A stretch of 64,000 bases of DNA, from assembly GCF_000011105.1 (NCBI RefSeq), contig NC_000961.1, positions 186,001 to 250,000 on the forward strand, in the 5' to 3' direction. This document shows positions 4,640 through 32,834 of the stretch, piece after piece (position 1 is the first letter of the stretch; each line of letters starts with the position of its first letter). A program made the position numbers and the translations under genes. Under the pieces are notes generated by a model that had not been told where the DNA came from, ran no database searches, and saw nothing but the letters and a program-made list of their open reading frames with translations. The stretch comes from Pyrococcus horikoshii OT3 (lineage in GTDB: Archaea > Methanobacteriota_B > Thermococci > Thermococcales > Thermococcaceae).

Positions 4640-4889
4640 TCTCAAACAATCTCGGGGGATATTTTAACAAATTTTTGGCAAATCATTAAGGTGTGCAAAA
4701 ATTTTTCATTATAGGGGATGATTGTCTATAGGGTGGAGCCCCCGAATAAGGGGGTAAAGCCCAGGGGTCAAGACGGCGGCGTCGGGGGGATTGGGGGCAA
4801 AGCCCCCGGAATGAACCCCGCCCTCCTCCCCTGGGTATAGGGAATGCGCTCCCGAGGAAAACCCCGAGTGGGGGACCCCTCGGGAGTAA
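4640..4889 (+). other. rRNA operon promoter/leader region, GC-rich and structured
   Basis: No protein gene. An AT block (4695-4713, A and T runs followed by CATTATA) is the only promoter-like element and is a weak match to a TATA box. From about 4722 the base composition jumps to that of rRNA. Visible hairpins include CCCCC/GGGGG around 4739-4755, GGGGGC-AAA-GCCCCC around 4793-4808, CCCAGGGG paired with CCCCTGGG (about 4759 and 4828), and CCCGAGG paired with CCTCGGG (about 4852-4884). It is probably the external transcribed spacer, but its elaborate folding is not otherwise explained. Confidence 0.5.
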
Positions 4890-4974: not shown

Positions 4975-6471
<1,497 letters not shown>

Positions 6472-28314: not shown

Positions 28315-29619
28315 TTATGGATACAGCCTAGCTGGAGTCCTCGGGAAGAGTGCTGCCCACCTAATGTGATCAAGCTTTAGAACCCAGGCTACCAGTCTCT
28401 CAACTCCTAGCCCAAATCCGCTGTGGGGAACGCTTCCGTACCTCCTAAGGTCAAGGTACCATTCGTAATCCTTTGGGTCCATTCCCTCTTCTAGTATTCT
28501 GTTGAGTAACTTATCATAATCGTCTTCTCTCTGACTTCCCCCAATGATCTCTCCATACCCCTCTGGGGCGAGCATGTCAGAGGCTAAAACCTTTCTTGGA
28601 TCGTTAGGATCTTCTTTCATGTAAAATGCCTTTATGTGCTTGGGGTAACCGTAGACGAAGAATGGCCTATCAAACTCTTCTGTTAGTACCCTCTCTTCAT
28701 CAGCCCCAAGATCATCTCCCCACTCAACGTTAACTCCCTTAGACTGGAGAATATCTATAGCTTCATCGTAGCTAATCCTTGGGAAGGGAGGTTCCGTATT
28801 CTTTAAAGTTGTTAGGTCATCTCTAAACATCTCTATCTCCTTCTTTCTTAACTCTAGGGTTCTTTGAACCATGTAGCTAACCAACTCCTCTTCAACTTTC
28901 ATTATATCCCAGAGATCCATCCACGCGGCTTCGAGCTCGAGGTGCCAGAACTCTGTAAGGTGTCTCCTCGTTCTGCTCTTCTCTGCTCTAAAACTTGGTG
29001 TTAATGACCAGACCTTTTCTAGTCCGAATATGGCCGCTTCCAAATAAAGCTGAGCAGATTGACTTAGGTAGGCATATTTATCGAAGTACTTAAGCTTGAA
29101 TAGTGTTGCTCCACCTTCTACAGCTCCAGTAACTAAGATTGGGGGAAATACTTCATGCCATCCGTCTTTTAATAGCCATTCCCTTGCGGCCATGATCAAT
29201 GTTTCCTTTACCTTCATTATAGCTGAAGCCTTTGGGGTTCTTATGTGAAGGTGCCTGTAATCCAATAAAAGTTCAGGACTCGCCTGTTCTGGGTTTTCGG
29301 GGATTGGAAATTCGCTTACAGCTTGAATTACTTCCAGTTTTTCTACATGAACCTCGGCCCCTCCTGGGGCCCTTTCATCGGCTTTTACTATTCCTTCAAC
29401 AATTACACTTGATTCTCTTCCCAATTTCTTGGCTTTCTCAAATGTCTCCTCTCCAACAACGTTCTTTGCAACCACGGCTTGAACTATTCCCGTGGAATCT
29501 CTAATCCACAGGAATATCTTCTTTCCAACTCTCATGTTAGTATAAACCCACCCGGCTAATCTGACCTTTTTACCATCTAGCTCAGGCTTTACCTCTTGAC
29601 AGTAAACTTTCTCTATCAT
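28315..29619 (-). CDS. asnS: Asparaginyl-tRNA synthetase
   Basis: A 434-residue class IIb aminoacyl-tRNA synthetase: N-terminal OB-fold anticodon-binding domain (VRLAGWVYTNMRVGKK, residues 17-32), class II motif 2 (FRAEKSRTRRHLTEFW, about 215-230) and motif 3 (GFGLGVERLVAW, near 407). AsnRS rather than AspRS is indicated by GAVEGGATLF, SHSGFGLG-type ending and the C-terminal FPRTPARLYP, together with the length known for the P. horikoshii enzyme. It ends seven bases from convergent purF. Three guide RNAs lie upstream, between it and aglB. Confidence 0.93.
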   Translation of the reverse strand: MIEKVYCQEVKPELDGKKVRLAGWVYTNMRVGKKIFLWIRDSTGIVQAVVAKNVVGEETFEKAKKLGRESSVIVEGIVKADERAPGGAEVHVEKLEVIQAVSEFPIPENPEQASPELLLDYRHLHIRTPKASAIMKVKETLIMAAREWLLKDGWHEVFPPILVTGAVEGGATLFKLKYFDKYAYLSQSAQLYLEAAIFGLEKVWSLTPSFRAEKSRTRRHLTEFWHLELEAAWMDLWDIMKVEEELVSYMVQRTLELRKKEIEMFRDDLTTLKNTEPPFPRISYDEAIDILQSKGVNVEWGDDLGADEERVLTEEFDRPFFVYGYPKHIKAFYMKEDPNDPRKVLASDMLAPEGYGEIIGGSQREDDYDKLLNRILEEGMDPKDYEWYLDLRRYGSVPHSGFGLGVERLVAWVLKLDHIRWAALFPRTPARLYP

Positions 29620-29719
29620 AATCCATCACTGAGCCAAATTTCCATATGCATTCTATATAAGTTCTTCGGTTATTTGTGATACTTTGTTCAAAATTTCTTG
29701 GAAAAATTGTCAAATAGCA

Positions 29720-29775
29720 GGTCAGCGAAGGGCGTGGTCATCATCTGCTCAGCAAAGCAAAAGCTCTTCATCCCC
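29720..29775 (-). ncRNA. C/D box guide RNA (2'-O-methylation), both guides match 23S
   Basis: On the minus strand the boxes read C GGGATGA (29768-29774), D' CTGA (29749-29752), 4-nt spacer, C' ATGATGA (29738-29744), D CTGA (29722-29725). The 12-nt D guide (29726-29737) is perfectly complementary to 23S 6779-6790; the fifth-nucleotide rule predicts methylation of G6783. The D' guide (29753 onward) has an 11-nt perfect match to 23S 6939-6949, predicting G6942. The C box has one mismatch from RTGATGA. Dual targeting of the same rRNA domain makes chance very unlikely. Confidence 0.9.
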
Positions 29776-29837
29776 TGTCGGCCCGGTCGGAACCCCCGGT
29801 TCACGATTCCCCGGAGAGGGCGGGAACCGGGCCGGTT
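29776..29837 (-). ncRNA. Probable H/ACA-type guide RNA
   Basis: A GC island in an AT-rich gap. On the minus strand a 9-bp stem (CGGCCCGGT, 29826-29834 with ACCGGGCCG, 29779-29787) is followed immediately by ACA (29776-29778). Above it lies an internal loop, an upper stem (CTCCGG/CCGGGG) and a terminal loop with GGAA and GTGA elements that could form a K-loop. The top of the 3' pocket is 15 nt from ACA, as in pseudouridylation guides. I could not find a convincing rRNA target by eye. It ends one base from the C box of the adjacent C/D RNA. Confidence 0.55.
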
Positions 29838-29885
29838 AAAAATTATAGAGAATTATTTATTAATCTTAGCGAAAAATAAAAAGAG

Positions 29886-29940
29886 GGATGATGAGTTTTT
29901 CCCTCACTCTGAGGAGTGATGAGGAGCCGATGCACTGACC
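29886..29940 (+). ncRNA. C/D box guide RNA, both guides match 23S
   Basis: Boxes: C ATGATGA (29888-29894), D' CTGA (29909-29912), 3-nt spacer, C' GTGATGA (29916-29922), D CTGA (29935-29938). The D guide (29923-29934) has an 11-nt perfect match to 23S 7179-7189, predicting methylation at U7182. The D' guide has a 10-nt match to 7231-7240, predicting A7234. The RNA overlaps the last codons of the oppositely oriented aglB gene. Confidence 0.9.
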
Positions 29941-32834
29941 TCGATCATTGTATACTCCTTTTCTACTATGAACACAGGTTCCACTCTTATTCCCCTTATG
30001 ATAAGCTTATCTCCATGCTCTTTCTCCAGCTTCTCCTTGTAGGAGGATATAGCGTTCTTTGGCATTTCAGCGTTAACCACTATCTCGTTTTCTCCTGGAC
30101 GTAGCTTTATTCCCTCTTTGAGTTTTGTTATGAAGAACGTATCCATGTGGGGCTCGAAGGATGCATCATAATCTTCATTGCTCTTTCCTCCCTTCCTAAC
30201 TAAGTATATGAAGGTTGCCCTTAGGTACAAGTCTGCGGTGTATTCCTTGTCAACTCCCACTTTGAGCTCTAACCTTCCCGATTCTCCCTCCCTCATAATG
30301 TAGGCTGGATTTGTAATCTTACCATTTACCCTTACCGGACCAGTTAAAACTCCCACTGGGCCTTTTTGGGCGAGGATGAACCTGTACTTTTGAGCGGTAG
30401 GTAAAGTCACGTTGACGATTATTGGGTACTCCTCTAGATGGTTCATGTACTTTATTTCGCCTACCTTTATCCTCTTGATGATTTTCGTTCCATTTAATGC
30501 ATAGACGTAAAGCGTTGCATTCTTTATATCCCTCCCAAACGCTGAAATGTACAGCCTTAAGGTGTGCTTTCCTGGGCTTAATTTTCCTACCTCCCTCCAT
30601 GTTCCGTTTATGAAGTCCTCTATTTTATATATGGCAAACGGTCTGAATTCATAAACTATAACGCTACCGTACTGATAAACTGGTATAAAGTTTGAGAAGA
30701 GCTTTTCTGCAAATTCTGAATAGCTTGATGTTGGAATTCCAAAAGCTAGCTTGACGAAGTTGCTAGTTGCGACCTTGTAATAGGCCAAAACTCCAAGGCT
30801 AGGCGTTAGGTATACGACATATGGGAAGGGGCTACCATCGCTACATCTTCCACTTCCTTTAATTTTAATGTTCCCAGGGAATGCTACAGAAAGTATCGGG
30901 CTGCACTCTAGTTGCCCTATATTTACGGCTATTCTTCTCGTCTTATTTTGCTGGATAACTTTTATTACTATCCTAGCGTACGGGTTAACATAAACGTTTC
31001 CTGCTGCCTGGGTTAGTAGTATTGTCGTAACCCTTCCTCTTCCGTTTTCATCTCCATTGTATTCTTTCCTGGTTATAGCCCCTCCAAGGTAACTTATTGC
31101 ATTGAATTTAGCCCAGTCGTTGAGGTATATTATGAAGTAGTTTAACTCCCAGCTTTCGAAGTCAACTTCACTGATATTCCCATCCCTAGCTAAAAATAAG
31201 GCCAGTATATGATCCCTATCTCTGGCGTGTCCACCGTCAGCGCTCGCCCTTCTGTTACCCAGCAAGCTCGACTCTATCCAGTATCCATAATCCCACCAGG
31301 ATGTTGCGGTTGCATACTTTGACGTGTTACTCCTTAACCACTTCAGGGCTTGCTCCCATCCTGTGACCTCTATCTCGGTATTCTTTAAGGCCCTAGCACT
31401 TCTAGCTAGTACTGGAGCATGGACGAATGGGATAACGAGTATCATTAGGGAGAGCACGATCCCAAGTGCGGCCTTTATTCCGATGTTCTCCTTCATCTTC
31501 TCTATAACATCCATTGAGAATCCTATGAATATGCCAAAGAAAAGTGCTACTGCGTAACTTGCCAGGAAGAGGAACCTAACGGCCAGGTACAGCAGGTAGA
31601 GGGACATTGTATAGAATACCAGAGCGAATAGGGTTTCATTGTCACTCTTCGCTTTCTTAAACAGATCATATAAGTACTTTGTTAAGAGTATCAAAAGCCC
31701 AGGGATGCTGAGGAAGAATATTAGTCCATTCCCACTTTCAACTCCATAGTAGGCCTTTACATCACCTATCGTTGTCTTTGCAAGCTCTTGAACTGTCTCA
31801 TAGACTTGAGTCGACTGATAAGCCCCTCCCATTAATCTAAAGAGCTTTGGTCCCACGTACGCGTAGGCCCCTCCAAATCCGAGTAAAACTATGATAGTAA
31901 CCACGAGAAATCTATGCTTTTTGTCAGAGTAGTTTAGGTACCTCCCTCCGTAGAGCATTATCACAAGGAGGAATATTAGCCCTAGGAACACCTCAAAGGC
32001 GAATCTGATGAATCCTCCAATCTTTACTATTCCGGGGAATGTTAGGGCGTAGCCAAAGGCTAAAATTGCCAGATATGCTGGATAGAATTCTTTTACGAAC
32101 TTTTTGAGTTCTTCTAGTTTTCCAAAGATAAATAAGATTATCGTCTGTAGCGATGCAAAGCCCAGGAGAACCATCAAGCCGAAGGGGGATCCGTTCCATG
32201 CGCCCAATGAGATTACAGTTAATAAGACGAAGAGAGTTCCGTATATAATTTTTCTAGTTTTATTGCTTTCTTTTAGGTAATAGAGCATTGCAACTGAAGC
32301 GAATATGAACAAAGCCATAAATGGCCCGTCACCTCTTGCATTCCCTGAAAAAGTCCTTGAGAAGTTTGCTGTAGATACCGTTAGTACTACTGCTCCCCAC
32401 AGCCCAGTCCACTCGTTTAGGACTTTCCTTCCCAACAGATAAACTGCTATAACACCAAGGAACCCAACGAAGGGAGGCCATAGTAAGAATGCTTGAAGCT
32501 CATTATAACCGAATAATGAAACCACTTTATAGAAGGCTGCTGGGAGAAGGTATAGACCAAGAGGCTCCCCAATTAAGCTTCCAAATGGTGCATCTGACAT
32601 AGGATAATACCTGGGTAATCCTTCTTTTAGGACTAGCTTGTAGATCTCAAAATGGTAGAATGTATCTGGGTCTGGAAAATATTTTCCAGCCGTCAAGTGG
32701 CGAAGGTAAAATGCATAGATTGCGAACCCAAATACTAAAATTGGTATCAGCACCTTTTTGAGCAGAACGTAAGTACTTCTCTTCTCTTCACCTTCTTTAC
32801 CTTTCTCAACCTTCTTAACTTTGCTTTTCACCAT
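29904..32834 (-). CDS. aglB: Oligosaccharyltransferase AglB/STT3
   Basis: A 976-residue AglB of the long archaeal type, which transfers oligosaccharide from a dolichol carrier to Asn in N-x-S/T sequons on the outer membrane face. A short basic cytosolic N terminus is followed by about 13 membrane spans (to about residue 480), with DPDTFYHFE in the first external loop (catalytic metal site, Asp near residue 56), then the soluble domain with the sequon-binding WWDYG at residues 513-517 and beta-rich C-terminal domains. Glycosylation marks the surface layer and secreted proteins. Its 3' end overlaps a plus-strand guide RNA. It lies 14 bases downstream of glmS, whose product feeds amino-sugar synthesis, so the pair may form a glycosylation operon. 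Confidence 0.96.
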   Translation of the reverse strand: MVKSKVKKVEKGKEGEEKRSTYVLLKKVLIPILVFGFAIYAFYLRHLTAGKYFPDPDTFYHFEIYKLVLKEGLPRYYPMSDAPFGSLIGEPLGLYLLPAAFYKVVSLFGYNELQAFLLWPPFVGFLGVIAVYLLGRKVLNEWTGLWGAVVLTVSTANFSRTFSGNARGDGPFMALFIFASVAMLYYLKESNKTRKIIYGTLFVLLTVISLGAWNGSPFGLMVLLGFASLQTIILFIFGKLEELKKFVKEFYPAYLAILAFGYALTFPGIVKIGGFIRFAFEVFLGLIFLLVIMLYGGRYLNYSDKKHRFLVVTIIVLLGFGGAYAYVGPKLFRLMGGAYQSTQVYETVQELAKTTIGDVKAYYGVESGNGLIFFLSIPGLLILLTKYLYDLFKKAKSDNETLFALVFYTMSLYLLYLAVRFLFLASYAVALFFGIFIGFSMDVIEKMKENIGIKAALGIVLSLMILVIPFVHAPVLARSARALKNTEIEVTGWEQALKWLRSNTSKYATATSWWDYGYWIESSLLGNRRASADGGHARDRDHILALFLARDGNISEVDFESWELNYFIIYLNDWAKFNAISYLGGAITRKEYNGDENGRGRVTTILLTQAAGNVYVNPYARIVIKVIQQNKTRRIAVNIGQLECSPILSVAFPGNIKIKGSGRCSDGSPFPYVVYLTPSLGVLAYYKVATSNFVKLAFGIPTSSYSEFAEKLFSNFIPVYQYGSVIVYEFRPFAIYKIEDFINGTWREVGKLSPGKHTLRLYISAFGRDIKNATLYVYALNGTKIIKRIKVGEIKYMNHLEEYPIIVNVTLPTAQKYRFILAQKGPVGVLTGPVRVNGKITNPAYIMREGESGRLELKVGVDKEYTADLYLRATFIYLVRKGGKSNEDYDASFEPHMDTFFITKLKEGIKLRPGENEIVVNAEMPKNAISSYKEKLEKEHGDKLIIRGIRVEPVFIVEKEYTMIEVSASAPHHSSE

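Follow-up and report, generated by a model that had tools for sequence, protein, structure and literature searches.

The 64,000-nucleotide stretch of the Pyrococcus horikoshii OT3 chromosome analyzed here (the window) carries an H/ACA-like hairpin adjoining a C/D guide on the same strand, raising the question of whether the two elements constitute one guide RNA or two, and which rRNA residues each of them would modify. Very probably, the locus encodes a composite guide RNA with one promoter, the H/ACA half directed to the 16S rRNA uridine at window position 5853 (U5853) and the C/D half to G214 and G55 of the 23S rRNA. The RNA itself is the already catalogued archaeal snoR9, which comprises Pab21 joined to sR9 (Table 1); new here are (i) candidate rRNA targets assigned to each of the P. 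horikoshii guides and (ii) the apparent loss of the H/ACA half on more than one occasion within the Thermococcaceae.

Table 1. Features of the snoR9 locus, its flanking genes and the predicted 16S target (window coordinates).
Feature	Position	Strand	Basis
Whole composite guide RNA, RF00065 snoR9 (Pab21 + sR9 ortholog)	29709..29834	-	cmscan
H/ACA half, ortholog of Pab21 (one hairpin plus 3' ACA)	29776..29834	-	sequence, fold, P1/P2 covariation, published Pab21 at snoR9 5' end
P1a, lower stem 5' strand CGGCCCGGU	29826..29834	-	sequence, covariation
5' pocket strand UCCCGCCC, 8 nt, pairs with 16S GGCGGG	29818..29825	-	target scan, conservation
P2 + K-loop UCUCCGG.GGAAUCGUGAA.CCGGGGG	29793..29817	-	sequence, conserved GA and UGA
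3' pocket strand UUCCG, 5 nt, pairs with 16S GGAA	29788..29792	-	target scan, conservation
P1b, lower stem 3' strand ACCGGGCCG	29779..29787	-	sequence, covariation
ACA box	29776..29778	-	ACA in 21/22 intact copies, ACG in 1
C/D half (sR9 ortholog), GGGG terminal stem to CC after D box	29720..29775	-	cmscan, conservation, sequence
C box AUGAAGA	29765..29771	-	sequence
D' guide GCUUUUGCUUUG	29753..29764	-	11 Watson-Crick pairs with 23S rRNA; N+5 rule, G214
D' box CUGA	29749..29752	-	sequence
C' box AUGAUGA	29738..29744	-	sequence
D guide CCACGCCCUUCG	29726..29737	-	12 Watson-Crick pairs with 23S rRNA; N+5 rule, G55
D box CUGA	29722..29725	-	sequence
TATA-like element, ~23-32 bases 5' of P1 (location approximate)	29857..29866	-	AT profile, upstream sequences
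STT3-like membrane protein gene, 976 aa (putative)	29904-32834	-	translation
Aspartyl-tRNA synthetase gene (putative)	28315-29619	-	translation
Predicted pseudouridylation target, 16S U	5853	+	top pocket score in 16S + 23S

The identity of the RNA relies on the Rfam family RF00065 (snoR9), which cmscan matches to 29834-29709 of the minus strand over the full length of the model (1-128 of 128) with 149 bits (E = 2.2e-35), above the gathering cut-off of 90 bits. The P. abyssi H/ACA guide, Pab21 (230,517-575), represents the 5' part of the snoR9 RNA-seq transcript 230,449-575(-) (PMC4652768), and the RF00065 match in genome G001 has coordinates identical to those of this transcript; the LeARN paper also describes both guide kinds within sR9 (PMC2241582). 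Pab21 binds L7Ae, aCBF5 and aNOP10 and, when reconstituted with these proteins and aGAR1, is active in pseudouridylation in vitro, with less than 50% of the substrate modified (PMC3726423). Association with L7Ae and Cbf5, the lack of which the preliminary description had named as grounds for discarding the H/ACA assignment, is therefore established in vitro for the P. abyssi ortholog.

Archaeal H/ACA guides comprise a lower stem of ~9 bp with ANA after it, a distance of 14-15 nt between the ACA and the upper stem, a 10-pair GA stem and a K-loop. The P. horikoshii hairpin displays a 9-bp P1 with ACA directly 3' to it, an ACA-to-P2 distance of 5 + 9 = 14 nt, and an upper stem of seven standard and three purine-purine positions, with the GA/UGA K-loop containing sheared G.A pairs as a predicted binding site for L7Ae. 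The C/D half shows the archaeal arrangement of AUGAAGA, CUGA, AUGAUGA and CUGA boxes with two guides and 12-nt spacers; the C box of P. horikoshii is one base off RUGAUGA, which counts against the composite reading. The preliminary description had recognized an H/ACA-like RNA adjoining a C/D guide on the same strand and a 9-bp stem running directly into ACA, and both points hold on the minus strand, in agreement with the RF00065 match, the covariation and the descriptor search given below. Its coordinates and anatomy need a single correction, the distance from the ACA to the C box, which is not one base but four (GGGG, part of the C/D terminal stem), the C box beginning at 29771.

The region upstream of P1 displays a peak in AT content of 0.82 at positions -32..-25, versus ~0.55 around it (22 loci), a profile that provides the unbiased measure, the TATA-like words having been picked after viewing the sequences. 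The H/ACA half is 24% AT, no TATA-like word occurs within it or between the halves at the 22 loci, and the four bases that separate the halves leave no place for a second promoter. The shared upstream TATA-like element agrees with the single transcript of P. abyssi (PMC4652768), and a single transcript of both halves is predicted for P. horikoshii. The possible bicistronic transcript of the preliminary description therefore stands as far as the single transcript is concerned, whereas the term 'composite guide RNA' is more apt, since the literature searched contains no report that the transcript is processed to two separate RNAs. A truly bicistronic arrangement, in which cleavage of a common precursor within the ACA-to-C box interval would release two guide RNAs, would accommodate the activity of Pab21 alone in vitro (PMC3726423), the existence of the C/D half without the hairpin in G010 (g3), in G011 and G015 (g4) and in all g6 genomes examined, and the short ACA-to-C box distance, which would place two bulky RNPs back to back; nevertheless, it is unlikely, given that the P. 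abyssi RNA-seq discloses one transcript, 230,449-575 (PMC4652768), and that neither a cleavage site nor separate ends are reported in the literature searched.

The composite RNA is also preserved as a structure. Across 22 intact Thermococcaceae copies, from genomes of Pyrococcus (g1), g2 and g5, P1, P2 and the C/D terminal stem comprise 20 pairs, which are formed in 95.2% of cases, and two-sided changes affect 11 of them, including 9 of the 16 that belong to P1 and P2; neither value is reached in 500 shuffles (0/500), and shifting the partner by one column of the same alignment lowers the pairing to 62%. While the stems vary, the pocket core is near-invariant (CCGCC, with one exception, and UUCC), and the guide cores of the C/D half are invariant or almost so. 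Conservation of the ACA (21/22) and of the stem, the other point on which the preliminary description had let its reading depend, is thus observed, with compensatory changes in P1 and P2. Furthermore, a descriptor comprising a 9-bp P1, a 5-6-nt 3' pocket strand, a P2 of at least 6 bp and ACA finds this site as its sole match in the 64 kb, both strands included, compared with a mean of 0.03 matches in 60 dinucleotide shuffles. Folding energies are unremarkable, with z-scores of -1.83 for the whole RNA and -0.63 for the hairpin, and were rejected as sole evidence. The alternative of a fortuitous GC-rich hairpin next to a C/D guide, devoid of H/ACA function, finds a point in its favor in the latter z-score but is already refuted, its probability being negligible, by the Rfam match, the covariation around an invariant pocket, the ACA conservation and the biochemical activity of the ortholog.

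Besides the genomes in which the C/D half stands alone, two g5 genomes display hairpin remnants, with sister genomes holding intact copies: G012 retains the 5' strand of the hairpin and has lost the 3' strand and the ACA, and in G032 the hairpin is partly deleted. These remnants are relics. At both loci, L024 (G032, 1501-1619) and L025 (G012, 1501-1611), the 5' strand and the C/D half are intact, and much of the 3' strand of the hairpin is replaced by AT-rich sequence. On the aspartyl-tRNA synthetase tree, a single-gene tree of limited support, the C/D-only state requires at least three changes on well-supported branches, which makes repeated losses more probable than one event. In the Thermococcaceae, the H/ACA half therefore apparently disappeared repeatedly, leaving relics in one genus, with the C/D half kept; its loss in several relatives, a point against the composite reading, indicates that it is dispensable. 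A covariance model of the hairpin reveals no relocated H/ACA half above noise in g4 or g6, and a pocket-pattern search in the genomes that lack the H/ACA half returns no more matches than the reversed control. A hairpin-model match in G010 (E 2e-6) was rejected as a relocated H/ACA half, as it proved to be HgcE/Pab105, a double hairpin at 507-656 of locus L064, the first part of which is similar to the snoR9 hairpin.

Where the preliminary description had found no target for the H/ACA pocket, a scan of the 16S and 23S rRNAs returns as its best match 16S U5853, position 879 of the Rfam-bounded gene. The site, AAAGGAA-U-U-GGCGGGGGAGCA, would form four pairs with the pocket on its 5' side and seven on its 3' side, leaving the UN dinucleotide unpaired. 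Counting by hand along the universally conserved 907-926 segment, we take U5853 to be the equivalent of E. coli U920. The Pab21 target was reportedly assigned by Muller in 2008, among the H/ACA targets of P. abyssi. The pocket-target score is not decisive by itself and exceeds shuffles only modestly, 30 of the 300 shuffled rRNA sets equalling it; the assignment consequently rests also, with conservation weighing most, on (i) the conserved pocket, (ii) the conserved target, with the 22 surrounding bases unchanged in most of the Thermococcaceae searched, and (iii) the published base following the Pab21 target, a U (PMC3726423), which fits the site GGAA-U-U. In the C/D half, 12 consecutive Watson-Crick pairs join the D guide to 23S CGAAGGGCGUGG and 11 join the D' guide to 23S AAAGCAAAAGC, matches attained in 1/200 and 0/200 shuffled rRNA sets, respectively; the bases opposite the fifth nucleotide upstream of the D and D' boxes are G55 and G214, the predicted sites of modification. 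We infer 16S U5853, 23S G55 and 23S G214 as the exact target residues in P. horikoshii; the studies of archaeal 2'-O-methylation (PMC4644070) and of T. kodakarensis pseudouridine mapping (PMC6138745) contain no data on these sites.

According to the composite reading, snoR9 would be made from one promoter, with its 5' H/ACA hairpin associating with L7Ae, Cbf5, Nop10 and Gar1 for the pseudouridylation of 16S U5853 (GGAA-U-U-GGCGGG), and its 3' C/D part associating with L7Ae, Nop5 and fibrillarin for the 2'-O-methylation of 23S G214, through the D' guide, and G55, through the D guide. A further step, decidedly improbable in our estimation, would have both RNPs assembled at once, back to back on one RNA, modifying 16S and 23S rRNAs and thereby coupling subunit maturation, a coupling that the lineages devoid of the H/ACA half would have lost. 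SnoR9 brings two naturally occurring RNA-guided modification systems together in one short RNA, which makes it a suitable subject for the question of whether the two particles assemble jointly.

The RNA sits between the STT3-like and aspartyl-tRNA synthetase genes, all three on the minus strand. A second C/D guide (RF00095), at 29884-29941 of the plus strand, overlaps the STT3-like gene at its 3' end and is transcribed away from snoR9, the two RNAs being separated by ~50 bp of AT-rich DNA; the 23S rRNA sites complementary to its guides lie around positions 454 (11 pairs) and 506 (10 pairs). G001 and G002 likewise have the two RNAs in a close divergent arrangement, and in other Pyrococcus genomes the RF00095 match lies ~1.2 kb away. 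Elsewhere in the window, the Pab19 H/ACA RNA (RF02794) occupies 4738-4839 of the plus strand, just upstream of the 16S gene and probably within the rRNA leader, a placement similar to that reported in T. kodakarensis (PMC4247193).

Among known systems, the stand-alone archaeal H/ACA sRNAs Pab91, Pab19 and Pab105/HgcE share with snoR9 the K-loop hairpin followed by ACA and the pocket geometry (10/5/9 fold, PMC4652768), but no C/D fusion is described for them in the literature searched. The closest likeness is to the Pab21-sR9 RNA of P. abyssi, which the P. horikoshii copy matches over its full length, with the same order of H/ACA followed by C/D and the aspartyl-tRNA synthetase gene located downstream in Pyrococcus too; a few compensatory changes in P1 distinguish the two copies, with otherwise no substantive difference. 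Animal composite C/D-H/ACA scaRNAs, such as U85, also unite both guide elements in one RNA, but comprise an H/ACA element nested inside the C/D RNA, act on snRNA targets and reside in Cajal bodies, whereas in snoR9 the two elements are arranged in tandem and the targets are rRNAs.
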